A DNA stretch of 64,000 nucleotides from Castellaniella defragrans. GTDB lineage: Bacteria > Pseudomonadota > Gammaproteobacteria > Burkholderiales > Burkholderiaceae_B. The notes under the pieces are model-generated. The model worked only from the letters and a program-made list of their open reading frames with translations, was not told the origin of the DNA and did not search any database. Position 1 is the first letter of the stretch. Every line of letters starts with the position of its first letter. Where the stretch lies: contig NZ_JACHIB010000007.1 in NCBI RefSeq assembly GCF_014203015.1, positions 63,634 through 127,633 on the forward strand. The letters are read 5' to 3'. Both the position numbers and the translations under genes were made by a program. Below are positions 12,958 through 53,610 of this stretch, piece after piece.

Positions 12958-13094
12958 GGGTGTGTTCGTGGCATGGCGCGTGGGGCTCGTCTTGGCCCGG
13001 CTCGTTCGTAAGGATAATCCATTTGGATTCTGGATTGGTCTTGCACGCCAGGGGGGCGTTGTGCGAAGACTGTGCGCCGTTTGGGAAAGGAGAT

Positions 13095-13145
13095 ATGACA
13101 AAAGGCTATTTTGTAAATTTGTGTGAACGGCTGCGCACCGTTTAA
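13095..13145 (+). CDS. Possible 16-residue peptide or leader ORF
   Basis: ATG 13095 follows AAAGGAGAT at good spacing and encodes 16 codons ending TAA, rich in A/T unlike the surroundings. It lies in the 282-bp gap between thiG (minus) and the lipoprotein operon (plus), which otherwise shows no gene. It could be a leader of the downstream operon or chance. No homology can be judged at this length. Confidence 0.2.
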
Positions 13146-13239
13146 GATGGCACGGGCTTGGCTGATTGAGCGATGTCGCGCGGGACCGCGCCGGCTATCG
13201 GCCGATGGAGCCGACGGGTTTCAACATGGGAGAAGCCAG

Positions 13240-14088
13240 ATGAAGGGGAACAAGAAGGCGCTGGCCGCCGTGCTGGTTGCGTCCGTTTTCGCCGCCGGCT
13301 GCGCAACGGATGGCAGCGGCGGCTGGGGGACCAAACAGTCGATCGGCACGGCCGTCGGCGCCGTGGCGGGGGTGTTGCTGGGCAGCCAGATCGGTGGCGG
13401 GTCGGGCCGGACAGTGGCGATGATCGTCGGCGCCTTCGCTGGCGGCGCGCTGGGCAATTGGATCGGCTCCAGCCTGGACGCCCAGGACCAGGAGGCACTG
13501 GCGGCAAGCACCCAGCGCGCGCTCGCCAGCGGCCAGACGGAAACCTGGACGTCCGATCATAGCGGCGCATCCGCCGTGATCCGGCCTGTGTCGTCCGAAA
13601 CCAAAACGCAGCAGGCAACCGTCAAGCGTTCCGAAAAGATCGTCCAGGTGCAGAACCTGGCGGCGCTCAACGAGACCTGGCAGGCAGCCTCGTCGGTCAA
13701 TCTGCGTGCGGCGCCGACGGCCTCGGCCACCAAGGTGGGCGGTCTGGCCAGCGGTCAGACGTTCACGGCGCTGGGCCGCACCAGCGACAACTGGATCGCC
13801 GTGGGCCGCAAGGGGGTGACGGTGGGCTATGTGTATGGTCCGTTGGTCAAGCCGGTTGTTGTCGCCAAGGCGGATCAGGCGGTGGACCTGGACGGGATCT
13901 CGGTGGCCCAGGCCAGGACGCAGGGCTTTGACTTGGACACCATCGAGCCTGCCCGGCCGGTGGTCGAGCAGGTGGCCGTGCAGACGACGTGCCGCACCAT
14001 GCAGTATGACGTCACGACGGCCAAGGGCAGCGAGTCCAAGACGGTCAATGCCTGCCAGGCTCCCGACGGCGCGTGGCAGATCGGGTGA
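13240..14088 (+). CDS. Outer-membrane lipoprotein with glycine zipper and SH3 domain
   Basis: 282 residues. A lipoprotein signal ends in FAAG-C21. A glycine-zipper segment follows (about 33-75, GTAVGAVAGVLLGSQIGGGSG), as in 17-kDa surface antigens. A bacterial SH3 domain lies at about 148-206 (VNLRAAPTASATKVGGL, then WIAVG), and a C-terminal Cys-containing motif (CRTMQYDV to ACQAPDGAW) matches the end of the surface-antigen family. ATG 13240 has GGGAG upstream. The stop is 5 bp before the next gene, so these are co-transcribed. SH3 domains of this type often bind peptidoglycan; the role here is unknown. Confidence 0.85.
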   Translation: MKGNKKALAAVLVASVFAAGCATDGSGGWGTKQSIGTAVGAVAGVLLGSQIGGGSGRTVAMIVGAFAGGALGNWIGSSLDAQDQEALAASTQRALASGQTETWTSDHSGASAVIRPVSSETKTQQATVKRSEKIVQVQNLAALNETWQAASSVNLRAAPTASATKVGGLASGQTFTALGRTSDNWIAVGRKGVTVGYVYGPLVKPVVVAKADQAVDLDGISVAQARTQGFDLDTIEPARPVVEQVAVQTTCRTMQYDVTTAKGSESKTVNACQAPDGAWQIG

Positions 14089-14093
14089 GGCTC

Positions 14094-16154
14094 ATGAATC
14101 AGCGTGTCCTTGCCGTCGCCCTGGCGGGTGCTTTCGCATGGGGTCCGGCATGGGCCGATTCCTTCCGCCTGGCTTTCTCCAAGGCGGAAAACGTCGAGAT
14201 CTTCGTCGAGCATGCGGCGGGTGCGCCCTGGTGCTCCGCCACCCCGGATCTGCGGGTCGTCTATCATGGTGCGCCGGATCCGGCTGCGCTGGAGCGCCTG
14301 CTTCCCAAGCTGGGCGCCTTGCTCGGACAGCAATGCCCGCAGGCCGAGACCGTGACCTGGCGCAGCCAGGATGGAGCGGGCAAGGCGGTGGCTGAGGGCA
14401 GCGGCAGCAAGGCAGAACATTGGAGGCCGGTTATGGCCGCGGTCTCGTCGCCTGTTCTCGTGGGGTCCGCTCCTGTAGCGTCCGCGGCACCTGCGCCTGA
14501 AGTTGCGCCGACGCCCGCCGTCGCTCCAGTTCCCGCCGTGGCGCAGCTTCCGGCGGCGCCCGCATCGGCCGCGGCGCCGGCCGCCGGGCAGGCCGATGCT
14601 CCATCCGCCTCGCCGGCCGTTGCGGCGAAGGGCGCGGTGGAGCAGACTGCCGCTGCACAGCCACAGCCACAGCCACAGCCACAGCCACAGCCACAGCCAC
14701 AGCCACAGCCACAGCCACAGCCACAGCCACAGCCACAGCCACAAGCGAAATCCCAGGCCCCGCAGGCGGAGACTGAAAATGCGGCTGCGGTAGCCGTTCG
14801 GGCGCAGGCCGCGCGATACGCCAGCCTGGGACCGGCTGGTTTTACCGTGGGTGATTGGCAACCGGAAAGCGAAGCGGATGTTCTGGCGAAGTCTTCATTC
14901 ATCCGAGAGTTGTCGGATCAGAACGGCTGCAAAGTCCGGATCGGCTATCGTCTGGATGACGAGGATGCCAAATATGTCTCTCTGCTGAGTTCGGGCCTGA
15001 GCTGCGATGCGGCGGGCCGTGCCCAAGGTGTGGGCGGCCTGACGCTGCGGCGGTCCGATGGCGCGGTAATCTCGCAGGAGCGCAAGGTTTATTTCCTTGA
15101 TGGCTATGCCTTCAACACGCCGGTCCAGTCAGCCCGGCTGGCAGGGACCAATGGCCAGGATGTGGTCTGGTTCAGCCTGGGCCATGACGCGAAGGACCAG
15201 TCGTACTTTCTCCTGCGAGCCGCAGTGTTTGCATGGGGATCGGGTTTGCTGCCTCTGCGAGTGCGGCCGGACCTGGACGTATTGACTGCTCAGGAGTCCA
15301 GCTTTCGTCAGGCGGCGGATATTTCCCGGCAGGTCGATGCGGCGCTACATGCCTTGCAGAACGTCGCCTTGCCGGATGCGACAGAAGTGAGCGTCCGGTT
15401 TGCCGATAGTCTGGAAGGGGTCGTCAACCAGGATCGAGAGCGCATGATGTATGCCATTAATGCGGACCGGGCCTGGAATTACCGGCAGCGCCAGGCGGTT
15501 GGCGAGTGGAGGTTCCGGCTGGATCAGGGCGTCAACTACGTCTTCGCGCGTGAAAAGCGGCGGGCTGACGAGGAGCGCGAGCGCAAGCGTCAGGCGGAGT
15601 TCCAGGAGCAGCAGCGCCAACAGCAATTGGCCTGGGAAAAGCGTCGGGAACTGGAAAGCCAGGCTCGCGAGGCCGAGCACCAGTTGCGGCAATACGAGAA
15701 TCTGGTGGCGGAAGCCCGGCGAGGCCCGGACGGCGCATTGAAGCGCCATTTCGTCAGATCTGACCGCTATATTCCATTGCAGGGTGGCGTCTATGCGCGT
15801 TTGTATGGCGGCGGCTCCATTCCTTTCCGGCGGATCGTCCATGTCAGCGGCCGTGACGGCGACGAGGCCAAGGTCGACTTCCCCTACGATCTACGGATCG
15901 CGGGTCTCAAGGAGGTGAAAGAAGCCTGGTATGTCGTCGCCGGTGAGGCACGCGTGGATGAAACGCGTCAGGATGCGGATGGCCTTGCGCTGACGGTGGT
16001 GACACCGGATCCGGCAGGCGGCCTGCGGGTGTGCGAAGAAAAAGGGTGCGCGGACTTGGCCGAGCCCCTGACGGTGATGCGCTTGCTGTCGGGGCGGTCA
16101 GATTGGACGCCGGAGTCTGCTCGGGCGTTGATCGATCAGGCACGAGCCAGGTAA
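14094..16154 (+). CDS. Unrecognised secreted protein with a (PQ)14 linker and coiled coil
   Basis: 686 residues, function not recognised. A signal peptide (about 1-22, cleavage after AWA) leads into a small Cys-containing domain (about 23-100), an Ala/Pro-rich stretch, a tract of 14 Pro-Gln dipeptides (residues about 189-217), a globular region (about 240-470), a strongly charged coiled coil (about 485-545, rich in Arg, Glu and Gln) and a C-terminal domain with a CEEKGC pair. ATG 14094 has GAGG 5 nt upstream; an earlier in-frame codon at 14073 would overlap the lipoprotein gene. Pro-Gln tracts can be rigid periplasm-spanning linkers, as in TonB-like proteins, but no TonB domain is visible. 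Confidence 0.8.
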   Translation: MNQRVLAVALAGAFAWGPAWADSFRLAFSKAENVEIFVEHAAGAPWCSATPDLRVVYHGAPDPAALERLLPKLGALLGQQCPQAETVTWRSQDGAGKAVAEGSGSKAEHWRPVMAAVSSPVLVGSAPVASAAPAPEVAPTPAVAPVPAVAQLPAAPASAAAPAAGQADAPSASPAVAAKGAVEQTAAAQPQPQPQPQPQPQPQPQPQPQPQPQPQPQAKSQAPQAETENAAAVAVRAQAARYASLGPAGFTVGDWQPESEADVLAKSSFIRELSDQNGCKVRIGYRLDDEDAKYVSLLSSGLSCDAAGRAQGVGGLTLRRSDGAVISQERKVYFLDGYAFNTPVQSARLAGTNGQDVVWFSLGHDAKDQSYFLLRAAVFAWGSGLLPLRVRPDLDVLTAQESSFRQAADISRQVDAALHALQNVALPDATEVSVRFADSLEGVVNQDRERMMYAINADRAWNYRQRQAVGEWRFRLDQGVNYVFAREKRRADEERERKRQAEFQEQQRQQQLAWEKRRELESQAREAEHQLRQYENLVAEARRGPDGALKRHFVRSDRYIPLQGGVYARLYGGGSIPFRRIVHVSGRDGDEAKVDFPYDLRIAGLKEVKEAWYVVAGEARVDETRQDADGLALTVVTPDPAGGLRVCEEKGCADLAEPLTVMRLLSGRSDWTPESARALIDQARAR
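14661..14738 (+). repeat. CCACAG hexanucleotide repeat, 13 perfect copies
   Basis: Thirteen uninterrupted CCACAG units flanked by degenerate copies (GCACAG before, CCACAA after) encode the Pro-Gln tract of the 14094-16154 gene. Copy-number change would shorten or lengthen the linker without shifting the frame. Confidence 0.97.
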
Positions 16155-16173
16155 GGTGGAGAGGACGAACACG

Positions 16174-17193
16174 ATGGACAAGCAGAAAAAGATCCTGGTG
16201 ATCGGCGGCTTGGCGGCTCTGGTGCTGATCGGCGGCTGGCTGGCCGTTTCCCACGTGGCGACCAGCCGTGCCGAGGACAAGTTGTACGCCTTCCTGGACC
16301 GGTACCAACTGCGCGATGCCGTTCATTGGCAAAGCCTGTCGGCGTCACCGTTCGGGACAGCCACCTTGAAGGGAATCACGATTCGCCTCGGAGAAGGCCA
16401 GAACGCGGAGAAGGGGGCGATCGAACGCATCCACCTGTCCGATCTGGAGGACTCCGAGGATCGCAAGAGTGCCAGGGTCGAGGTGACGGGCATTGCCGGA
16501 GGCGATGGCCGCAGCCTCTTGAACCGGACGAGCCTGATCCAGGCCGCTGGCCGCGCCGATTTGCCGCCTTTTTCTCTGACGATGGATTGGCGCCTGGATC
16601 GCAAGGACGACACGGGTGCACTGCATTTCTCCCTGGAACAGCCCAAGGCGTTCGATGGGAAGTTCGATCTGGAACTGAGCCGTGTACGCGACCTGCTTCG
16701 GCTTGCTGATCGCCTGGCCCATGGGGGTGGAGACGATTTTCAGGAACTGGCTGGCGGTTTCGGATTCCTGGGCCCTTTGGGAGCGCTGGCGGTGGTCAGT
16801 CAGAAGATCCAGCAGATGGAGGTTCGTGCCGTGCGAGCCAGCATCCGGGATGAGGGCTATGGCGAGCGGTCCCGTGCGCTTGCCAAGCGGCATGACTTCG
16901 ATGCGGCGCCGGGTGAAGGCTCGGCGGATGTGCAGCGCGAGCGGTGGTTCAAGGAAAAGATCGATGCGGGCCGGGCACAGTGCAAAAAGGACCCCGAGGC
17001 CGCGTTCGGCGGAGCGCCTCTGAGCCGCGACGACTGCCTGGCCTTGCTGGATTTCGTAACGGGGGAGTCTGCCAAGCTGACCGTGAAAATGGAACCCGCG
17101 CGTCCGGTTTCCCTGGAACAGCTATTGGAGGGAGGGTCCAGCCGCGATCCTTATCGTTCTATCCGTCTACTCGAAATGCGGCTGGATAATTAA
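16174..17193 (+). CDS. Unrecognised inner-membrane-anchored protein
   Basis: 339 residues, function not recognised. One N-terminal membrane helix (about 6-28) is followed by a soluble, presumably periplasmic region. The early part (SASPFGTATLKGITIRLGEG) resembles the start of DUF945/AsmA-like membrane-anchored proteins, but I would not assign it. ATG 16174 follows GGAGAGGA; a GTG at 16156 lies within that ribosome-binding sequence and is less likely. It is 19 bp after the previous gene and ends on TTAA shared with the convergent btuF stop. With its two upstream neighbours it makes an outer-membrane lipoprotein, periplasmic protein and inner-membrane protein set. Confidence 0.78.
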   Translation: MDKQKKILVIGGLAALVLIGGWLAVSHVATSRAEDKLYAFLDRYQLRDAVHWQSLSASPFGTATLKGITIRLGEGQNAEKGAIERIHLSDLEDSEDRKSARVEVTGIAGGDGRSLLNRTSLIQAAGRADLPPFSLTMDWRLDRKDDTGALHFSLEQPKAFDGKFDLELSRVRDLLRLADRLAHGGGDDFQELAGGFGFLGPLGALAVVSQKIQQMEVRAVRASIRDEGYGERSRALAKRHDFDAAPGEGSADVQRERWFKEKIDAGRAQCKKDPEAAFGGAPLSRDDCLALLDFVTGESAKLTVKMEPARPVSLEQLLEGGSSRDPYRSIRLLEMRLDN

Positions 17194-18233
17194 TGCGCAT
17201 AGGCATCCCGCAAATCCGCACAGATCGCCTCGGCCGCGTCCACCAGGCGCGGTCCCGGCCGGTGCAACTGGTCGGGATCGACGGCATAGATGCGGTCCGC
17301 GAGGGCGGCGGGCAGGCCGTGCTGGGCCCACCAGGCGCGCCGGGCCGCCAGGGTTTCGCGGCCGTAGGGCGAGACGATCAGCACCTGCGGGTTCAGGTGC
17401 AGCACCGACTCCACGCTGACCTGCGGCGCGGCGATCGCGTGCGTGGCGTAGGGGTTGACGCCGCCGCAGCGCGCCAGCAGGTCGTTGGTCAGGGGGTCGC
17501 GGCCCAGGGTGTATAGCGGGTCGGCGCTGATCTCGATGAAGACGGTCTGCGGCGGGGGCGGCGCTGGCCGCAGGGCGCGGATGCGGCGCTCCAGGCCGCG
17601 CGCGGCGGCGTCGGCGGTGGCGCGGGTGCCCAGACGGTCGCCCAGGTCGCGGATCAGGGCCGGGATGTCGTCCAGCGATTTCGGATTGGCGTAGACCAGG
17701 GGCACGCCCAGAGGCGCCAGGCGCCGTTCCAGAGACCGCGTGCCGTCGGACGGCAGCCAGCCGACCACCAGGGTTGGGCGCAAGGTCAGGATGGTTTCCT
17801 CGCTGAACTGGATGCCGTCGCCGATGCGCGGGATGGCGCGCGCCTCGGGCGGGTAGTCGCTGCGCAGGACGGTGCCGACGATATCGGCACCGGCGCCGGC
17901 GGCGTAGACCAGCTCGGTGGCGTTGGGCGCCAGGGTGACGATGCGGGGCGGCGTGCCGTGCCGGACCGGACCGGTCGCAAGGGGCGCCGCGGCGGCAACG
18001 GGCACGGCAGCGGCCCCTGCGTAGGCGGCCCCGGCATCGGCAACTCCGGCATCGGCAGCCCCGGCATCGGCGATCCCGGCATCGACGGTCCCGGCATCCG
18101 CGGCCCCGGCCCGCGCAAGGTCCGGGCCGGCAACGGCCGCCCAGGCGGCGCACAGGCCCAGGCAGGCGGCGGCCGCCAGGCGCGGCAGGCGCCGCCGCGC
18201 TCCGGCCAAGCCGCCCGCCGTCCGCCGCCGCAT
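17190..18233 (-). CDS. btuF: Cobalamin ABC transporter substrate-binding protein
   Basis: 347 residues. A signal peptide is followed by an unusual Ala-Asp-Ala-Gly-rich low-complexity linker (about 45-80) and then the class III periplasmic binding domain (PRIVTLAPNATELVYAAGAG, VVGWLPSDGT, VYANPKSLDDIPALIRDLG, PLTNDLLARCGG). It starts 2 bp after the btuB stop, so both are in one transcript under the B12 riboswitch. The permease and ATPase (BtuC, BtuD) are not in the window. Assignment as B12-binding rather than another metal chelate rests on btuB and the riboswitch. Confidence 0.88.
   Translation of the reverse strand: MRRRTAGGLAGARRRLPRLAAAACLGLCAAWAAVAGPDLARAGAADAGTVDAGIADAGAADAGVADAGAAYAGAAAVPVAAAAPLATGPVRHGTPPRIVTLAPNATELVYAAGAGADIVGTVLRSDYPPEARAIPRIGDGIQFSEETILTLRPTLVVGWLPSDGTRSLERRLAPLGVPLVYANPKSLDDIPALIRDLGDRLGTRATADAAARGLERRIRALRPAPPPPQTVFIEISADPLYTLGRDPLTNDLLARCGGVNPYATHAIAAPQVSVESVLHLNPQVLIVSPYGRETLAARRAWWAQHGLPAALADRIYAVDPDQLHRPGPRLVDAAEAICADLRDAYAH
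18031..18105. repeat. 15-bp degenerate tandem repeat inside btuF
   Basis: Five units starting CCGGCATCGGC at 18031, 18046, 18061, 18076 and 18091, encoding the Asp-Ala-Gly-rich linker of BtuF on the minus strand. Confidence 0.85.
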
Positions 18234-20814: not shown

Positions 20815-23800
20815 ATGTTCCTCAAATCGCTCACCGGCCTGTTTTCCCTCACGTTGGCCGGTTTATCCTGCGCACAGGCGTACGAAGTCCACACGATCAC
20901 GACACCCGCCGGGCAGCCGGCGTTCGAGCTGCGGTACTTCGATCCGGCCGACGGGCCCTTCGTGTCCGACAACGAGGGCACCCAGGTATCGACATGGGCC
21001 TGGTCGCCGCATCTGATCCAGCAGATCAATCAGGGGGTGCGCTACTGGGCCAGCCTGATCCAGCCCCAGGGCGCCTTGGAGCCGGCCGTCATCCATATCG
21101 GCACCTATGATGCATGGGCCAATGCCTTCGGCCTGTCTATCCTGGGCGATGGCGGGCGGAACCCGAAAACCGTGCTGCAGATGCGGCTGCAGGGCCTGCC
21201 GAGCAGCCCCGCCAGCATGGAGGACGGCTCGCACGCGGCCTTCGGCCTGGGGCCGTCCGTTTACCCCACCGTCACGCATTTCAGCCAGATCCCCTTGACG
21301 GGCAAGGACGATATCGTTTCGACCGCCATTCACGAACTGGGTCATGGCTTCGGCATCATCAGCTCGATCCGGAACACCGCGGGCACGCTGACGCCGGCCT
21401 TCGGCGACGTGCTGGGCGGGTGGGCGTCCCTGATGGTGGACGACAACGGCAACCCCGCGCGGCCGGGGCAGGTCATCCTGTGCCGGGGATGCCCCAACCC
21501 CGCAGCGTCCGATGTCTTCGACGTGCGCCAGGACAAGGGCATGCTGGTGGGCCCCCATATCGATGAAGTGCTGGCCGGCGGCCTGCCCGGCGTGCCGGTG
21601 GCCATGCTGAAGCACAAGGTCGACGGGACCGTCAGTGTGGATGACAACTACATGAGCCACATCGAGCTGAAGAACAGCATGATGAGCCACCAGAGCTACC
21701 GCAACTACACCGGCTTCATGGAAGCGGAGCTGGCGGTGCTGCAGGACCTGGGCTACACCATAGACCGGCGTAATTTCTTCGGGCGCTCGATCTACGGCAG
21801 CGGCCTGGATGTCGTCAACACGCAGGGCTATTCCGCCCGCAACGCCGAGGGCACCGCGTATCTGCCGGGCAGCTACAGCACGGCGCTGCTGGGCCTGGGC
21901 CTGCACGTCTATGGCAGCGGCAACCGGATCCGCCAGGCGGCCGACCTGCTGACGGCGGGAGAGGGCGGCGCCGGCATCCGGGTCGATGGCGAAGGCAATG
22001 CGCTGACGATCGATCCGGGCGTGCGCGTGCATGCCGACGGTTCGTCGGGGCAGGGGATTATGTTCGCCTACGGCAGGAACCATACCCTGGTCCAGCGCGG
22101 CGACGTCGAAGCCCTGGGCGAGCGCGGTGTCGGCCTGCGCTTCGATTTCGGTACCAACGTTTTTACCGCGGCGTTCGAGGACCGGGGCTCGTATATCCAT
22201 GCCTCCGCCGAGGGCCCCTTGCCCCCGCTGCCGGAACTTGACGGCCCCCTGGTGACCCAGGCCGATATCTCCGGCCGGGTGGCGGGGCGAGAAGCCGCCA
22301 TTTACATGTCGGCCAATGCTTACGTGGCACGCCTGAATCTGATGCAGGGCGCGCGCATCGAAGGCGATATCGTGTCTTTGTACGATCAGCAGGACGATCT
22401 GGGCGCCCAACGCCTGACGACCGTGTCCTTCGGCCAGCGCGCCGATGTGGCGGGCCGGGCCACGGGGCAGGCGGATGCGGATTTTCGCTTTGCCTATACG
22501 GGCAATATCCTGGGCGGGAAGAACCTGACGCTGACGTTTGACGGCGGCGATACCCGCTTGAACGGCCGCAACGAGGTATATGGTGCGGAGATCCGGCCGG
22601 GCGCCCGGCTCGGCGGCAATGCCACCTACACAATGACCGGGGGCGGCGCCTTGACCAATCAGGGGACGCTCGCGCCCGGCAACTCGCTGGGCCGGATCGA
22701 CGTGATCGGCAATTATGCGCAGACGGCCAGCGGCACCTTGCAGGCCGAATTCGACGCCTCGGGCGCCTCGGACGTGCTGGCCGTCAGCGGGACGGCGACG
22801 CTGGCGGGCGGACTGGATCTGATGCCGATGGCCGGCTGGTACGCCGACGGCTGGTCCGCCACGGCGAGCCCCCTGCGGGCGGGCACCGTGGCCGGGGATT
22901 TCGACACGGTCGCGTTGTCGCCGGTTTCGCCCACCCTGCGGTTCGAGGCCGCCGGCCTGGGCGCCGGCCAGTATGACCTGAGCATGACGCGGCCGGCCGA
23001 CGCCTATGGCCGCTACGGCGCCAGCGCCAACGATCTGCGCGCAGGGCGGGCCCTGTCGCAGCTGGCTGCGTTGGGGACGCCGGCGGTGCAGCCGCTGTTC
23101 CGCGGCCTGGATTTCTCCGCTCCGGATGGTCACGAAGTCGCGCAGGCGCTGGTGCAGGTGTCGCCCGCCCCCTACAGCACGGGGCTGGCGGCGTCGCTGC
23201 GGCGTGATCGCGCGGCGGCGGATGCGGCCCTGCGCAGCCTGGCGCCGGACGGTGCTCCGGCCGGTTCGGGATGGGCCGGCCATGCCGCCCTGTTCGGCGG
23301 CACGGGCAGGCAGGATGCCCGGGGCACGCTGGTGGGCGGCCGCGAGACCCTGTATGGGGTGGTGGCGGGCAGCAGCCGGCGGCTGGAGGCGGCCCCCGAC
23401 GTCACGGTGGGCTTCAGCCTGGACCTGTCCGAGCAGAAGGTCAGCCTGCGGACTCCGTATCGGGGCGAGGCCAAGGCCACGGCCGTGGGGCTGGGCGCGC
23501 AGTGGCGCTACCGGCCCGATGCCGGGCGGGGCTGGACCGCGCAGAGCGCCGCGCGCCTGGGGGTGGAGCGCGGAACCATGGATCGCCAGGTGGCCTTTGC
23601 GGATTATTCCGCCCGCCACAAGGCGGACTGGACGGGCTACGGGGTGTCGGCCCAGGCCGAGGGCGGCTATCGGTTTGCCTTGACGGAATCGCTGTCGGCG
23701 GGGCCTTTCGTGTCGCTGGACTATGCGCGTCTGATGCGCCCCGGGGTGGATGAGTCCGGCGCCCAGGCGACGCGGCTGATGCTGGATCGCCTGCACGCCG

Positions 23801-24126
23801 ATGCCTTGCGCTCGCGCCTGGGGATCGATGCCCGTACGGCATGGGATCTGGGCGGCGAGCGGGCGGTCTCGGCCCGGCTGCAGATCAGCTGGGACCGGGA
23901 ATGGCTGGACCGGGACGTCAGCCAGACGGCGCGCTTCGACGCGCAGCCGGCCGTGTCGTTTGCCAGCGTCAACACCTGGGTGCCGCGCGACACGCTGGGA
24001 CTGCGCGCGGGTCTGGACTGGCGGCGCGGCGAGCGGGTCTCCGTGGGCCTGGAGCTGGGCGGCCAGACGGGAGGCAGTTACCGGGCCATCGACGGGCAGC
24101 TCAAGCTGCGCTGGGCGTTCCGCTAG
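20815..24126 (+). CDS. Autotransporter with metzincin-like N-terminal domain
   Basis: 1103 residues. A signal peptide (about 1-22) is followed by a putative protease domain (about 23-320) with HELGHGFG (His173, Glu174, His177, Gly180) and a later Met-turn-like NSMMSHQSYRNY. Next come a short beta-helix-type passenger (about 340-720) and a C-terminal autotransporter beta-barrel (about 820-1103, from GWAGHAALFGG to the end). In HExxHxxGxxH metzincins the third ligand should follow three residues after the glycine; here that position is Ser183. The barrel would export the passenger through the outer membrane. An AT-richer stretch with TATAAC precedes the start. Substrate unknown. Confidence 0.85.
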   Translation: MFLKSLTGLFSLTLAGLSCAQAYEVHTITTPAGQPAFELRYFDPADGPFVSDNEGTQVSTWAWSPHLIQQINQGVRYWASLIQPQGALEPAVIHIGTYDAWANAFGLSILGDGGRNPKTVLQMRLQGLPSSPASMEDGSHAAFGLGPSVYPTVTHFSQIPLTGKDDIVSTAIHELGHGFGIISSIRNTAGTLTPAFGDVLGGWASLMVDDNGNPARPGQVILCRGCPNPAASDVFDVRQDKGMLVGPHIDEVLAGGLPGVPVAMLKHKVDGTVSVDDNYMSHIELKNSMMSHQSYRNYTGFMEAELAVLQDLGYTIDRRNFFGRSIYGSGLDVVNTQGYSARNAEGTAYLPGSYSTALLGLGLHVYGSGNRIRQAADLLTAGEGGAGIRVDGEGNALTIDPGVRVHADGSSGQGIMFAYGRNHTLVQRGDVEALGERGVGLRFDFGTNVFTAAFEDRGSYIHASAEGPLPPLPELDGPLVTQADISGRVAGREAAIYMSANAYVARLNLMQGARIEGDIVSLYDQQDDLGAQRLTTVSFGQRADVAGRATGQADADFRFAYTGNILGGKNLTLTFDGGDTRLNGRNEVYGAEIRPGARLGGNATYTMTGGGALTNQGTLAPGNSLGRIDVIGNYAQTASGTLQAEFDASGASDVLAVSGTATLAGGLDLMPMAGWYADGWSATASPLRAGTVAGDFDTVALSPVSPTLRFEAAGLGAGQYDLSMTRPADAYGRYGASANDLRAGRALSQLAALGTPAVQPLFRGLDFSAPDGHEVAQALVQVSPAPYSTGLAASLRRDRAAADAALRSLAPDGAPAGSGWAGHAALFGGTGRQDARGTLVGGRETLYGVVAGSSRRLEAAPDVTVGFSLDLSEQKVSLRTPYRGEAKATAVGLGAQWRYRPDAGRGWTAQSAARLGVERGTMDRQVAFADYSARHKADWTGYGVSAQAEGGYRFALTESLSAGPFVSLDYARLMRPGVDESGAQATRLMLDRLHADALRSRLGIDARTAWDLGGERAVSARLQISWDREWLDRDVSQTARFDAQPAVSFASVNTWVPRDTLGLRAGLDWRRGERVSVGLELGGQTGGSYRAIDGQLKLRWAFR

Positions 24127-47041: not shown

Positions 47042-48007
47042 TTGAACTTCTCAGAACTGTTCGCTCCCATCGTGTCCGACATGCGGGCGGTCGACGCCGT
47101 CATCCGCGCCCGCCTGGATTCCGAAGTCGTCCTGATCCGCACCATCGGCGATTACATCGTCGGCGCCGGCGGCAAGCGCATGCGCCCGGCCATGGTGCTG
47201 CTGGTGGCGGGGGCGCTGGGCTACCGGGGCGACAACCACCACCGCCTCGCCGCCGTGGTGGAATTCATCCACACCGCCACCCTGCTGCACGACGACGTGG
47301 TGGACGAGTCCGACATGCGCCGCGGCCGCCAGACGGCCAACGCCGTGTTCGGCAACGCCGCCAGCGTGCTGGTGGGCGACTACCTGTATTCGCGCTCCTT
47401 CGAGATGATGGTCGAATCCGACTCCATGGCCGCCATGGCGGTGCTGTCGGCGGCCACCACCATCATCGCCGAGGGCGAGGTCCTGCAACTGCTGAACGTG
47501 CACGATCCGGACGTGTCCCTGGACCGCTACCTGCAGGTCGTGCGCTACAAGACCGCCAAGCTGTTCGAGGCCGCCGCCCAGGTGGGGGCCATCATTTCGC
47601 GCGCCACGCCGGAGCAGGAAGCCGCGGCCGCCGCCTACGGCCGGCACATCGGCACGGCCTTCCAGCTGATCGACGACGTGCTGGACTACAGCGGCGACGT
47701 CCAGGCCCTGGGCAAGAACGTGGGCGACGACCTGCGCGAAGGCAAGCCCACCCTGCCGCTGATCCGGGTCCTGGAAACCGGCACGCCCGAGCAGCGCGCC
47801 CTGATCCGCGGCGCCATCGAGACCGGCGACGCCGACTTCGAGGCCGTGGCGCGCGCCATCCACGCCACCGACGCGCTCGACTACACCCGCCAGGCGGCCC
47901 GCGCCGAGGCCGATCTGGCCCGCGAGGCGCTGTCGGCCTTCCCGGATTCCGTTTATCGGGAAACTCTGCTAAAATTCTGTGCTTTCGCGGTCGAGCGTGA
48001 TCGCTGA
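47042..48007 (+). CDS. ispB: Octaprenyl diphosphate synthase
   Basis: Makes the ubiquinone side chain. The 321 residues contain both aspartate-rich motifs, LLHDDVVDESD and LIDDVLDYSG, and GGKRMRPAMVLL. The start appears to be TTG 47042, because it gives the family-typical N-terminus and the first downstream ATG would remove the first helix. It belongs functionally with ubiE, ubiJ and ubiB at 5-10 kb. Confidence 0.95.
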   Translation: MNFSELFAPIVSDMRAVDAVIRARLDSEVVLIRTIGDYIVGAGGKRMRPAMVLLVAGALGYRGDNHHRLAAVVEFIHTATLLHDDVVDESDMRRGRQTANAVFGNAASVLVGDYLYSRSFEMMVESDSMAAMAVLSAATTIIAEGEVLQLLNVHDPDVSLDRYLQVVRYKTAKLFEAAAQVGAIISRATPEQEAAAAAYGRHIGTAFQLIDDVLDYSGDVQALGKNVGDDLREGKPTLPLIRVLETGTPEQRALIRGAIETGDADFEAVARAIHATDALDYTRQAARAEADLAREALSAFPDSVYRETLLKFCAFAVERDR

Positions 48008-48106
48008 AAAATTTCCCGCTGGCGGGGCTTGCCGGTTGATCTTCATCCGGCCGGGGCCTGAAATATGGTCTTCCATGAACTTCATGGGCCCGCCTGGCAG
48101 CACCGT

Positions 48107-48183
48107 CGGGGTGTAGCTCAGCCTGGTAGAGTACTACGTTCGGGACGTAGGAGTCGCATGTTCGAATCATGTCACCCCGACCA
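48107..48183 (+). tRNA. tRNA-Pro (anticodon CGG)
   Basis: 77 nt with an encoded CCA. Acceptor stem CGGGGTG pairs with CACCCCG, the anticodon stem CTACG/CGTAG encloses loop TTCGGGA (anticodon CGG, reads CCG), and TTCGAAT lies in the T loop. It sits about 100 bp after ispB. Confidence 0.97.
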
Positions 48184-48195
48184 CCATTTCCTCAG

Positions 48196-48228
48196 AAACG
48201 CACGGCCGAAAGCCGTGCGTTTTTGTTT
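48196..48228 (+). terminator. Rho-independent terminator after tRNA-Pro
   Basis: AAACGCACGGC and GCCGTGCGTTT arms around CGAAA, followed by TTGTTT; starts 13 bp after the tRNA. Confidence 0.9.
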
Positions 48229-48387
48229 ATGCGGCGGGCGGGATGCGTCTGCCGCGTGGCCTTCCGGCAGGTCCGTCCGGCGGGCCCGTCCAACAGGTCC
48301 ATCCACCCGGTTCGGCCGGATTCCCCATCGAGTATTCAGGGTTTCCCCCAAGGCCGAACGCATTGAAACGTTTTACCTTTTCCCAAG

Positions 48388-48397
48388 TTGTATACTA
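48388..48397 (+). promoter_or_regulatory. Promoter/operator of the ABC importer operon
   Basis: TTGTATACTA includes a -10-like TATACT and matches TTGCATACTA in the gntR promoter region except at one base. The remainder of the 275-bp gap after the tRNA terminator shows no gene. Confidence 0.45.
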
Positions 48398-48503
48398 GAA
48401 TTCAATCCAAGAAGAGACGCCGGCGATGGGCGGATTTCGGCCTGGACCGATCCGTTGCCATCCTTTCATCAAATGGCGGGGTACTGCCCCGGGAGACAAA
48501 GAA

Positions 48504-49358
48504 ATGACTCGAGTTTCGGTGCACAAGATCTGGAGTACGGCCCGGCGGTATTCGCTGGCGGCCTGCGTCGGCCTGGCGATGAGCCCCATGGCCGTTCATG
48601 CGGCGGACGTGCCCGTGCCCGCGGACAGCCCCAGGATTCAGGCGATCCAGAAGGCAGGCGTGCTGCGGGTGGGCGTGCTGTCGAATCCGCCCTGGCTGGT
48701 GGAAAACACCCGCGGCGGCGATGAAGTCTGGTCGGGCCCCGCCTGGCTCCTGTCCAAGGAATACGCCAGGCTCCTGGGCGTGAAGCTGCAGCCCGTGCTG
48801 GTGTCGCACGAGACCAAGGTGCCCGTGCTGGCGTCGAACCAGGTGGACATGACGATCTCCCCGCTGTCGGTGACGCCGGCCCGGCAAAAGGTCGTGGATT
48901 TCGTCACCTACTCCAAGACCAGCCTGTGCGTCTTCGGCCGGGCCGACAATCCCAAGGTGGCCAATGCGAAATCCGTGGACGATTTCGACAAGCCCGAAGT
49001 CACCGTGGCCTATCTGACGGGCGGCGGCGAGGAAGCCTGGGTCAAGACCCGCTTTCCGCATGCGAACCTGCGGGGCGTGACCAGCGGGGTCGCCGCGCCG
49101 GTCGAGGAAATCATGGCGCGGCGTGCCGACGTGACGCCCATCAACCGCATTCCCTGGATCGCATTGAACAAGAAGGTGAAAGGACTGAAGGCGCTGCCGG
49201 AAGGAAACAACTGCCAGGACAGCACGGAGATGGCGTCCGACATCGGCCTGGCGATCGACAAGAACCAGCCCGAATTCCTGGCCTGGCTGACTGCGGTCAA
49301 GGATCGCATGCAGGCCCAGCTGGCCGCCGAGGAAGCCGCTTCCATCGAAAAGATGTAA
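48504..49358 (+). CDS. ABC transporter substrate-binding protein, family 3
   Basis: 284 residues. Signal peptide (about 1-35, cleavage near VHAAD) and an SBP_bac_3 domain: AGVLRVGVLSNPPWLVEN, then VDMTISPLSVTPARQKVVDF. This family normally binds amino acids or related small acids. ATG 48504 is preceded by GGGAG; the open frame begins earlier at 48426. It heads a four-gene importer operon. Given the linked sugar-acid enzymes, the ligand may be a non-amino-acid carboxylate, but the sequence does not show it. Confidence 0.92.
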   Translation: MTRVSVHKIWSTARRYSLAACVGLAMSPMAVHAADVPVPADSPRIQAIQKAGVLRVGVLSNPPWLVENTRGGDEVWSGPAWLLSKEYARLLGVKLQPVLVSHETKVPVLASNQVDMTISPLSVTPARQKVVDFVTYSKTSLCVFGRADNPKVANAKSVDDFDKPEVTVAYLTGGGEEAWVKTRFPHANLRGVTSGVAAPVEEIMARRADVTPINRIPWIALNKKVKGLKALPEGNNCQDSTEMASDIGLAIDKNQPEFLAWLTAVKDRMQAQLAAEEAASIEKM

Positions 49359-49370
49359 GACGGCGGCGGC

Positions 49371-50036
49371 ATGGAGTTCGATTTCAGCCCGGTATTCGAC
49401 AGCGCCGGCTTTTTGCTCCGGGGCGTCGGCGTCACGGTCCTGCTGTCGCTGCTGTCCGTGCTGGGCGGCGCGATACTGGGCCTGGCGGTTGGCCTGGGGC
49501 GCTGCTACGGCCCCAGGTGGCTCGCCATCCTGCTGACGTTCTACATCGATACGATGCGGGCGATTCCCGTGCTGGTGCTGCTGGTGTGGGTGTATTTCGC
49601 CTTCCCCATTCTCAGCGGCGCGAGCCTGCCGCCGTTCTGGGCCGCCTTGGCCGCGCTGTCGTTCCACCTGGCGGCCTACGTGGCGGAAATCCTGCGGGCG
49701 GGGATCCAGTCCGTCCGGCCGGGGCAGACCCTCGCCGGCCTGGCGCTGGGCATGTCCACAGCCCAGCTGGTGCGCAAGATCGTCCTGCCCCAGGCCTTCG
49801 TGCGCCTGTTGCCCGATTTCGGCTCGATCATTTCCCGCACGATCAAGGACACCGCCATCGCCACGGTGATCGCCGTACCGGAACTCATGCGCAGCGCGGA
49901 TACGATCGCCACCCAGAGCTACCGGCCCATCGAAGTGTTCACGGGGGCCCTGGTCATCTATTTCATTCTCATCTTCCCCGTTACGCGCGTAGTGGACATG
50001 TTCTACCGGCGCGTGGCGCATCTGGGCCGATCATGA
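49371..50036 (+). CDS. ABC transporter permease (HisM-type), first
   Basis: 221 residues, about five membrane helices with the permease signature EILRAGIQSVRPGQTLAGLALGMS. Twelve bp after the binding-protein gene and overlapping the next permease by 4 bp (ATGA). It forms the membrane channel with the second permease. Confidence 0.92.
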   Translation: MEFDFSPVFDSAGFLLRGVGVTVLLSLLSVLGGAILGLAVGLGRCYGPRWLAILLTFYIDTMRAIPVLVLLVWVYFAFPILSGASLPPFWAALAALSFHLAAYVAEILRAGIQSVRPGQTLAGLALGMSTAQLVRKIVLPQAFVRLLPDFGSIISRTIKDTAIATVIAVPELMRSADTIATQSYRPIEVFTGALVIYFILIFPVTRVVDMFYRRVAHLGRS

Positions 50037-50692
50037 ATCTGGACTGGTCTGTCGTCACGAGCCACTGGCAGTTGCTGGCGCATGGGGTGCTGCTGACGGT
50101 CATGCTGACCTTCTTCACCATGCTGATCGCCGTGCCGGGCGGAATCCTGCTGGCTTCGATGCGCCTGTCGAGGTTCCGCGTGCTGTCCGCGGGCAGCGCC
50201 TGCTTCGTCGAATTTTTCCGCAATGTGCCCATCATCCTGGTGGTGTACTGGGCGTTCTACGTCATGCCGGTGCTGTCGGGGCTGTCCCTGTCCCCCTTCA
50301 TGACCGGCCTGGTGGCGCTGGCCCTGAACAATTCGGCCTACAACTCGGAAACGTTTCGCGGCGGGATCAATTCGATTCGCAAGGGCCAGCGCGAAGCCGG
50401 CCTCGCGTTGGGGATGAGCGGGGCGCAGACCTTCTTCAAGGTGGTGCTGCCCCAGGCGTGGCGGCGGGTGCTGCCCGTGCTGGCCAGCGGCTGGGTCTCG
50501 CTCTTCAAGGACACGTCGCTGGTGTCGGTGATCGCGGTGGGCGAGCTGGCCTATACGGCCCTGCAGATCCGCTCCCAGACCTTCCGCGTGATGGAGATGC
50601 TGACCGCCATGGCGGCCATCTACTGGCTGCTGGGCTATCCGCAGGCCAAGCTGGTCGATTGGATCAACAGGAAATACGGAGTCAAGGAATGA
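50033..50692 (+). CDS. ABC transporter permease (HisM-type), second
   Basis: 219 residues; EFFRNVPIILVVYWAFYV and ETFRGGINSIRKGQREAGLALGMSGAQTFFKVVLPQA are the typical HisM-family motifs. ATG overlaps the upstream stop, and its own stop overlaps the ATPase start (ATGA), so the operon is tightly coupled. Confidence 0.92.
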   Translation: MNLDWSVVTSHWQLLAHGVLLTVMLTFFTMLIAVPGGILLASMRLSRFRVLSAGSACFVEFFRNVPIILVVYWAFYVMPVLSGLSLSPFMTGLVALALNNSAYNSETFRGGINSIRKGQREAGLALGMSGAQTFFKVVLPQAWRRVLPVLASGWVSLFKDTSLVSVIAVGELAYTALQIRSQTFRVMEMLTAMAAIYWLLGYPQAKLVDWINRKYGVKE

Positions 50693-51474
50693 GCCTGGTC
50701 GATGGCGGCACGCCCGAACGCAAGGGAGCGGACAAGCCCCCCATGCTGGTGTACGAAAATGTGCGGAAATTCTATGGTTCGTTCGAGGCGTTGAAAGGCG
50801 TGTCGCTGCAGGTGAACCGCGGCGAGGTCATGTGCCTGATCGGTCCGTCCGGCTCGGGCAAGTCCACCCTGCTGCGCTGCACCAACGGGCTCGAACTCAT
50901 CGACGACGGCCGCATCGTTTTCGAGGGCGCGGCACTGTCCAAGGACCCGAAATCCCTGCGCGCCGTCCGGCAGCGCATGGGCATGGTGTTCCAGAGCTTC
51001 GAGCTGTTCCCGCACAAGACGGCCATCCAGAACATCACGATGGGGCCGATGACGGTCCTGGGCATGTCCGAAGAAGCGGCCACCCGGCGGGCGATGGCGC
51101 TGCTGGAAAAGGTGGGGCTGGCCAGCAAGGCCGACAGCTATCCCAGCAACCTGTCGGGCGGCCAGCAGCAGCGGGTCGCCATTGCGCGCGCCCTGGCCAT
51201 GGAGCCCGACGTGATGCTGTTCGACGAGCCGACTTCCGCCCTGGATCCGGAGACCGTCGGCGAGGTCCTCAACGTCATGAAGAAACTGGCCCACGAGGGG
51301 ATGACCATGATCGTGGTGACCCATGAGATGACGTTCGCGCGCCGGGTGGCCAACTGGGTCGTGGTGTTCGAGGCCGGCGCCGTCCTGGAGCAGGGGCCTC
51401 CGGAGCAGATTTTCGGCGCTCCGCATCAGCCGCGGACGCGCGATTTCCTCAGCCATCTGGGCTGGAGCGGCTGA
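50689..51474 (+). CDS. ABC transporter ATP-binding protein (GlnQ/HisP-type)
   Basis: 261 residues with Walker [11 protein letters not shown]-loop [11 protein letters not shown], signature [15 protein letters not shown], Walker [13 protein letters not shown] and switch His in VVTHEM. It powers the importer. It ends at a hairpin that separates it from the convergent gntR gene. Confidence 0.94.
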
Positions 51475-51475
51475 T

Positions 51476-51495
51476 CCTGGCGGGGGACCGCCAGG
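51476..51495. terminator. Hairpin between convergent ABC ATPase and gntR
   Basis: CCTGGCGG-GGGA-CCGCCAGG, perfect 8-bp arms, immediately after the ATPase stop. Confidence 0.6.
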
Positions 51496-51516
51496 GGCCG
51501 CGCCGTGCGTGTCCGC

Positions 51517-52254
51517 CTAGGCGTCGAATTCAAAATATTCGGGAAATTGGGTGGCGGTTTGGCTCAGGTGTTGAAAGATCTTGCGCAGGTGTTCCTTGAC
51601 GGCGGTCTCGGCGATCGCCGATTCGCCGCTTTTGATGGCCAGGGCGATTGCGCGGTGCTGTTCGATGATCTCGGCCATGCTGTCCACGTGCTTGAGCGTG
51701 AACTGGCGGGCGCGGTCCATGTGCAGCTTTGCGTCCGCGATGTCCATCCACAGCTCGGGCAGCCCCGCATGATCGACGATGCTGCGGTGGAAGGCTTCAT
51801 CGGAGGCATAGAAAGAAGCGATGTCCCCGTTCCGGATGCAGGTTTCCTGAAAGGCGATCTGCCTTTCCAGCTCTTCGTGCAAGGCCAGCTGATGTCCCGA
51901 TTCGAGCGCCTTCTTGATCAGGTTGATTTCCAGGGATTCCCGGATGAACTGGGATTTCTTCAGGTTGCTGATCCGGATGGGGGCGACGATGGTCTTGCGC
52001 TGCGGGTAGATGTCCACGAGCTGCTTGGTGGCCAGCAGCACCAGCGCCTCGCGCACGGGCGTGCGGCTGACGTTCAGGCGGTCGGCCAGCATGTTCTCGG
52101 ACAGGGCTTCTCCCGGCTTGAGCTCCAGGGTGAGGATCTCGTGCAGCAGGCGTTGATATACCGCCTGCATGACGGTGCGCGTCGAAGCCGGCTCGGCTCG
52201 TTTCGGCGCGCGCAACCAGCTCGATGGGGCGCTGGGGGCCCTGGTGTCCGACAT
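51517..52254 (-). CDS. GntR-family regulator, FCD subfamily
   Basis: 245 residues. The winged helix (about 28-95) reads VYQRLLHEILTLELKPGEALSENMLADRLNVSRTPVREALVLL; the FCD effector domain (about 105-235) has the metal/ligand histidines in DEAFHRSIVDHAGLPELW and IIEQHRAI. ATG 52254 follows GGGAGGA, a strong ribosome-binding site. Divergent from the dehydratase gene; probably represses both it and the importer, judged from the shared site described in the findings. Confidence 0.93.
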   Translation of the reverse strand: MSDTRAPSAPSSWLRAPKRAEPASTRTVMQAVYQRLLHEILTLELKPGEALSENMLADRLNVSRTPVREALVLLATKQLVDIYPQRKTIVAPIRISNLKKSQFIRESLEINLIKKALESGHQLALHEELERQIAFQETCIRNGDIASFYASDEAFHRSIVDHAGLPELWMDIADAKLHMDRARQFTLKHVDSMAEIIEQHRAIALAIKSGESAIAETAVKEHLRKIFQHLSQTATQFPEYFEFDA

Positions 52255-52289
52255 GCTGCTTCCTCCCGTACGCGTCATTGATCGACCCT

Positions 52290-52311
52290 GATTGCATACT
52301 ACCATGCAGTC
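52290..52311. promoter_or_regulatory. Candidate GntR operator
   Basis: GATTGCAT-N6-ATGCAGTC, 8-bp arms with one mismatch, between divergent gntR and the dehydratase gene. It contains TTGCATACTA. Confidence 0.6.
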
Positions 52312-52362
52312 GAATCTCACTTACAGAATTAAAGCGTGAATCCCACAGAGGTAAGGCAAGCC

Positions 52363-53610
52363 ATGCGACATCCCAAGATCATCGATTTGAAAGCCACGAC
52401 GGTCACCGTGCCGCTGGAGGCGCCGTTGCGCCATGCGAACGGGGCTCATTGGGGCCGATTCGTGCGCACCCTCGTCGAGGTGGAGACCGACGCCGGCATC
52501 GTCGGCCTGGGCGAACTGGGCGGCGGGGGCGAGAGTGCGGAGCAGGCCATCCGGGGACTCAAGCCGTATCTGGTCGGCACGGATCCGTTCGAGCTGGAAA
52601 ACCTGCGCTTCAATATCTGCAACCCCACTGGCAGCTTGTACAACAATCGTACGCAGATCCATGCCGCGATCGAATTCGCCTGCATCGACATCATCGGCAA
52701 GTTCCTGGGCATTCCCGCGTACGACTATCTGGGCGGGAAGGTGCGCGATTCCGTCGATTTTGCCAGCTATCTGTTCTTCCGTCATCCGGACAGGGCGAGC
52801 GGCCAGGGCGAAGTGCGGACGATCGACCAACTGGTGCGCAATGCGCTCGACCTGAAGGCCAGGCACGGTTTTACTTCCCACAAGCTCAAGGGCGGGGTGT
52901 TCCCGCCGGAATACGAGCTGGAGGCCTTCAAGGCCGTCGCCGCCGCGGTGGGGGACGATCGCGTCCGCTTCGATCCCAATGGCGCGCTCAGCGTCGAGCA
53001 GGCCGTTCGCTTCGCCCGGCAGATCGAGGGGCTGAACAACGATTATTTCGAGGATCCTTCCTGGGGCCTGAACGGCATGCGCCGCGTGCGCGAAAAGACC
53101 TCGCTGCCGCTGGCGACCAATACGGTGGTGATCAACTTCGAGCAGCTGGCCAGCAATGTCCTGAACCCCGCGGTGGACGTGATCCTGCTGGACACGACCT
53201 TCTGGGGCGGCATCCGTCCCTGCATCAAGGCGGCGGGCCTGTGCGAGGCTTTCCAGCTGGGCATCGCGGTGCATTCCTCCGGCGAGCTCGGCGTGCAGCT
53301 GGCCACGATGCTGCACCTGGGCGCGGTGCTGCCCAATCTGGTGTTCTCGGCGGACGCGCATTATCACCACCTGCGCGACGACGTCATCGTGGGGGGCAAG
53401 ATGCAATATCGGGGCGGGCGCATCGAGGTGCCGACGGGGCCGGGCCTGGGCGTGGAGCTCGACCGGGACAAGCTGCGCGAATATGCGGAACTGTACAAGG
53501 AGCTGGGCGGCTACCCCTATGATCGGGACCCGCAGCGGCCGGGCTGGTTTCCCCTGATTCCGAATACGCGCTGGGCCGATCCCGAGCAGGGCGGCGTGGT
53601 CGATTACTGA
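52363..53610 (+). CDS. Glucarate dehydratase-like enolase-superfamily enzyme
   Basis: 415 residues. The catalytic set of the GlucD group is recognisable: KLKGG (Lys174, Lys176), metal ligands Asp204 (FDPNGA), Glu230 and Asn253 (ATNTV), then Asp277 and His304 (HSSGELG) as the probable dyad, spaced as in GlucD. It likely dehydrates an acid sugar, but the substrate loop cannot be read. ATG 52363 has AAGG nearby; GTG 52336 would add nine residues. First gene of a three-gene unit facing gntR. Confidence 0.85.

Follow-up and report, generated by a model that had tools for sequence, protein, structure and literature searches.

Genes A, B and C of the window (the whole stretch of DNA analysed, 64,000 nucleotides) may encode a stand-alone complex that spans the cell envelope, needs no type VI secretion system (T6SS) and is evolutionarily related to a T6SS input module. 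We put the probability of this reading at about 0.6, and we infer the localization, partners and role of the three proteins from the comparisons described below. The data support that A-B-C is one envelope operon, conserved as a unit and with a patchy distribution.

Layout and composition of the operon

The three genes are encoded on the + strand and are separated by intergenic gaps of 5 bp (A/B) and 19 bp (B/C), exactly the coordinates and gaps of the three-gene envelope operon proposed in the initial annotation. A promoter scan of the sequence found no site. The GC content of 13240-17193 is 0.650, compared with 0.702 and 0.717 in the flanking regions, so block and flanks are not equal. The GC3 values of B (0.70, z -3.5) and C (0.73, z -3.0) are both below those of all 36 window ORFs picked (mean 0.89) and A has an ordinary value (0.87, z -0.4), these z-scores being approximate since among the ORFs picked are extended forms of A and C and a few of doubtful status. 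The atypical codon composition ascribed to the whole operon therefore applies to B and C, and not to A.

Domain architecture of B and its relation to RtkS

Gene B (14094..16154, + strand) encodes a 686-residue protein that is predicted to be periplasmic and that, judged by profile matches and the fold of its model, is a member of the RtkS superfamily. RtkS (regulator of T6SS kinase in Serratia; PDB 9k0l, 9k1p, 9k1u) is an activator of PpkA and has been crystallised alone and with this kinase. Located in the periplasm and dependent on DsbA, it both binds PpkA, which heads the phosphorylation pathway of the T6SS, and stabilises it (PMC6082577). Its contact is with the periplasmic domain of the kinase (PMC6082577; complex 9k1u).

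The signal peptide of B is followed by an N-terminal domain with invariant W46-C47 and C81 (residues 23-117; 14160..14444, + strand), which is found in T6SS RtkS proteins too, and by a disordered Ala/Pro and (Gln-Pro)n linker (residues 118-247; 14445..14834, + strand) with pLDDT mostly below 50. Then come a middle domain with the RtkS fold and invariant C279 and C304 (residues 250-475; 14841..15518, + strand), a long helix of 62 residues with pLDDT above 90 over most of its length (residues 482-543; 15537..15722, + strand), and a C-terminal beta domain with C647 and C652 (residues 566-685; 15789..16148, + strand). The architecture was read from a single-chain AlphaFold2 model of middling confidence (mean pLDDT 75.5), and the signal peptide, the linker and the predicted helix agree with the earlier description of the second product as a signal-peptide protein with a Pro-Gln spacer and a coiled coil. 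The C-terminal domain looks partly OB-like, an identity that was rejected since the match (Z about 6) is too weak.

The middle domain matched 9k0l in Foldseek (E 6.4e-8), and its comparison with RtkS (VIA) gave Z 12.6 and rmsd 3.9 over 173 aligned residues, with the next unrelated entry at Z 6.6. The B-family profile matched the RtkS sequence in the PDB with E 5.3e-5, and profile-profile alignment (hhalign) of the B family with RtkS of E. albertii and Pantoea gave a probability of 99.2 and E 3.6e-19 over 317 columns, starting from column 3. The RtkS profile match takes in the first ~450 residues of B, signal peptide and N-terminal domain included. Since B belongs to the RtkS superfamily, the earlier statement that no known system could be recognised is no longer right, even though neither B nor C has a family in Pfam or NCBIfam.

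RtkS and B share a signal peptide, N-terminal and middle domains, a periplasmic location, predicted in the case of B, and conserved cysteines, whereas B adds the long proline-rich linker, the 62-residue helix and the C-terminal domain. Their contexts differ as well: RtkS sits in a T6SS cluster beside fha/pppA and has PpkA as its partner, whereas the block of B lies between thiG and a btuF-like gene in a host without a PpkA-type kinase above cut-off and without a T6SS sheath gene.

Within the linker, window positions 14656-14744 consist of the Gln-Pro-coding 6-bp unit CAGCCA repeated perfectly in tandem; the aligned relatives carry no such array, and it is likely a length-variable spacer. A PADLOC match of B (E 0.0056) was rejected as it covers the low-complexity linker alone, and AcfD and others retrieved with B in the PDB sequence search were likewise discarded, their matches running via the low-complexity Pro-Gln linker.

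A is a TagV-like lipoprotein by sequence

Gene A (13240..14088, + strand) encodes a 282-residue predicted outer-membrane lipoprotein. Its lipobox Cys21 is invariant, and the assignment to the outer membrane leans on the +2 rule, the +2 residue being Ala. A glycine-zipper region (residues 35-82; 13342..13485, + strand; Pfam PF13488, Gly-zipper_Omp, E 4.2e-8, and PF05433, E 1.3e-7) and an SH3_3 domain (residues 151-202; 13690..13845, + strand; Pfam PF08239, E 1.5e-10) confirm the proposal that the operon begins with an SH3/glycine-zipper lipoprotein. The linker after the SH3 domain holds two DLDxI motifs, DLDGI at residue 216 and DLDTI at residue 231 (13885..13944, + strand), and the C-terminal region has the conserved residues Cys251 and Cys272.

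TagV is an SH3 lipoprotein and T6SS accessory (PMC7614798). Like A it accompanies an RtkS-family protein; A has the C-terminal Cys pair and, unlike TagV, a glycine zipper and DLDxI motifs, and it lies outside any T6SS and not beside tssJ. Because the alignment of the two is confined to the SH3 region (74 columns, probability 96), A is on sequence grounds TagV-like, not a TagV. Its score against the NCBIfam TagV model NF041850 was 16.1 bits with a cut-off of 300, where TagV of E. albertii and Pantoea themselves score about 140.

A DLDxI motif or a close variant occurs in 18 of 19 A proteins, and the frequency in other ORFs is 0.5 per 1000 residues. In the A-less B-C loci examined (Achromobacter and one other genome; loci L034 and L085 are apparently the same record) DLDxI is found in a divergently transcribed non-SH3 lipoprotein adjoining B. 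This distribution, one pattern picked after looking, suggests that DLDxI may be a docking motif.

C resembles JlpA in its predicted fold

Gene C (16174..17193, + strand) encodes a 339-residue predicted inner-membrane protein with invariant C270 and C288, a JlpA-like periplasmic domain and almost no cytoplasmic part; its single N-terminal hydrophobic helix fits the one-helix membrane protein of the initial annotation. The single-chain model, of middling confidence (mean pLDDT 76.5), resembles JlpA of Campylobacter jejuni (3uau) over C residues 27-339 (Z 11.2, 256 residues aligned), with the next entry at Z 6.9. JlpA is a lipoprotein, whereas C has a transmembrane helix and no N-terminal cysteine; the identity is 9%, and C has two conserved cysteines. 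The C profile found no sequence relative in the PDB. In some relatives of C the N-terminal 35-40 residues weakly match the N-terminus of DUF945/YdgA (PF06097; E 2.1e-5 and 0.0012), the best of them with 24.2 bits and thus below the gathering score of 26.8, and C of the window has no match to this family. At three loci (L046, L050, L052) relatives of C without B adjoin T6SS genes (tssF/tagJ), and the neighbour at L046 seems to be a remnant in which tssC and tssF are broken and fused.

Conservation and distribution of A-B-C

Relatives of C were found in 35 of 200 surveyed genomes of the family. A search for relatives with the B sequence alone gave none, and an alignment-based scan found B relatives. 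The genes occur in the same order A-B-C in Paenalcaligenes suwonensis, Alcaligenaceae bacterium 429, Corticimicrobacter populi, two Advenella species, Pelistega indica and further genomes, as well as on a Pseudomonas cerasi plasmid and in P. panipatensis and P. graminis. The co-occurrence check proposed earlier thus showed the order to recur in several other genera, and it is kept at 25-40% B identity across Burkholderiales and Pseudomonas. Achromobacter has B-C without A, and the C family is in places found without B. Distances of B and C correlate at 0.96, a value reached by none of 2000 permutations, and dN/dS was 0.02-0.16 for A, B and C in two pairs. In a class-wide sample B-like genes were present in 3 of 369 genomes; the B family is rare and patchily distributed.

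On Pseudomonas megaplasmids a fourth gene, D, lies ahead of A-B-C in the neighbourhood of ter genes. D encodes a membrane protein of about 420 residues (L054:7852-9111, L073:11998-13266). B was found on 126 plasmid records, nearly all of Pseudomonas, and D on 125, and in those read the trio genes are annotated just as 'hypothetical' or as SH3-domain proteins. The megaplasmid B is clearly homologous to the B family (hhalign E 2.8e-44). The match of the megaplasmid C to the C family is limited to the N-terminal 72 columns (probability 79), and by sequence it is a likely, if unproven, orthologue. The portions consulted of the literature on IncP-2 megaplasmids and ter genes contain no treatment of the A-B-C or D genes.

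A gene resembling D, without a Pfam match, was also seen downstream of C at L036:2779-3900. Divergent non-SH3 lipoproteins with two or three DLDxI-type motifs each are encoded at L033:6708-7490, L035:6201-7067 and L084:9091-9873.

A variable cargo spot between thiG and btuF

In the window the block forms a segment (12960..17206, no strand assigned) between thiG and a gene that we call btuF-like, the name being derived from reading of its sequence alone. B and C are absent from all nine other genomes of the genus, where B is matched solely in its Pro-Gln repeat and no match to A is full-length. The genes flanking A-B-C are conserved in these congeners, and the locus was read in seven of the nine. 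In three of them the homologous flanks (window positions 12960 and 17206) are just 113-192 bp apart; of the others, one has a junction of ~600 bp, one holds genes for a CHASE2 protein and an M48 peptidase, and two hold an LpoB/DUF6844 lipoprotein set. The thiG-btuF junction is therefore a variable cargo spot, with A-B-C as one among several contents. The composition had been ascribed to either transfer or weak codon selection; of the two we favour acquisition of the block as cargo, because nine of nine congeners are without A, B and C and three of the seven loci read are near-empty.

A-B-C in relation to T6SS

No gene for the sheath protein VipB was found in the host genome (99.99% complete), and no Pkinase (Ser/Thr kinase) match above the curated cut-off, one partial match of 42 positions lying below it. 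VipB is encoded in seven of the 16 B-bearing genomes examined and missing in the other nine, including the host, and in the T6SS-positive genomes A-B-C was never seen inside a T6SS cluster. Enterobacterial T6SS clusters on plasmids encode RtkS between pppA and tagJ; the protein encoded there in E. albertii is RtkS itself (E 1.9e-29 against 9k0l) and also has the N-terminal domain of B. These clusters hold both RtkS and TagV, and TagV adjoins tssJ. The TagQRST-PpkA input pathway of Pseudomonas aeruginosa (PMC10482370) is a likeness in working alone, comprising an outer-membrane lipoprotein, a periplasmic protein and an inner-membrane partner; it has the TagST ABC transporter and a kinase, neither of which adjoins A-B-C.

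Proposed complex and alternative explanations

In the proposed complex, A would be the outer-membrane anchor, with its SH3 domain contacting peptidoglycan, and periplasmic B would cross the peptidoglycan layer by means of its long helix and its flexible, proline-rich linker. A single helix would hold C in the inner membrane, where it would be the partner of B and take the place of PpkA, the RtkS domain of B docking on it as RtkS does on the periplasmic domain of PpkA. B or C would likely dock at the DLDxI motifs of A, or at those of the alternative lipoprotein in Achromobacter. The initial annotation had suggested that the products together span outer membrane, periplasm and inner membrane; a component can be assigned to each compartment and the set is conserved as a unit, from which we infer the span itself.

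Such a complex would most likely monitor or brace the envelope (peptidoglycan or the spacing of outer and inner membrane). C cannot itself signal inward like PpkA, because it has almost no cytoplasmic part. Bracing, or sensing through an additional partner, which might be D in the loci that have it, would be as likely as classical signalling, since C is without a cytoplasmic relay domain. The proposal is weakened by the occurrence of C without B and the missing A in Achromobacter, and JlpA-like and OB-like folds fix no function.

The main rival reading, which we regard as unlikely, is a bridge for lipid or lipoprotein handling, with the open beta groove of C taking lipid from the inner membrane and B plus A forming a path or tether to the outer membrane. 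The likeness of the C model to JlpA and its weaker matches to LptA, LptC and other groove folds would suit it, although everything ranked below JlpA scores no better than noise (Z below 7); the weak similarity of C relatives to the DUF945/YdgA N-terminus points the same way, but with scores under the curated cut-off. Moreover, B is without a lipid-carrier fold, and its nearest relative is a kinase regulator. Alternatively, the genes could be a ter-associated stress or anti-attack module that guards the wall against lysozyme, phage or toxin, as the cargo behaviour and the position of megaplasmid D-A-B-C beside ter, LprI-type lysozyme-inhibitor and VWA genes might indicate. This appears quite improbable, since neither the window block nor the other relatives read have ter or LprI neighbours, and PADLOC gave no meaningful match.

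The homologies to RtkS and TagV, the sheath gene in some B-bearing genomes, and the C relatives near tssF in two genomes could also be explained if A-B-C were an accessory or regulatory set that serves T6SS where present and is a relic elsewhere. We consider this very improbable, however, given that most of the B-bearing genomes examined, host included, lack VipB, that A-B-C lies outside T6SS clusters, that purifying selection is strong in the Paenalcaligenes-type pair G054/G157, both without VipB, and that B has extra domains which RtkS lacks. That three unrelated envelope genes are adjacent by chance is hardly credible: members of the A and C families do occur apart in places, but the gene order kept across Burkholderiales and Pseudomonas at such low identity contradicts it.

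To our knowledge, RtkS has so far been described solely as a switch of type VI secretion. The enterobacterial RtkS/TagV input module might, at somewhat less than even odds, be one branch of a wider, T6SS-independent wall-sensing or bracing system that spreads as cargo, with many Pseudomonas megaplasmids among its carriers, and whose parts are an SH3 lipoprotein, an RtkS-family bridge, a JlpA-like inner-membrane protein and sometimes D. This bears on which signal RtkS reads and on why T6SS clusters have an SH3 lipoprotein. A minimal form that stands alone in T6SS-free hosts and has an inner-membrane partner of its own would offer the sensing part split from the weapon and in testable form.

Other features of the window

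A second stretch of lower GC content (0.62-0.65) lies at window positions 48001-53000. At 20815-24126 there is an ORF of 1103 residues in which a HELGH motif like that of metalloproteases and, after it, a C-terminus resembling that of autotransporters were recognised by eye.
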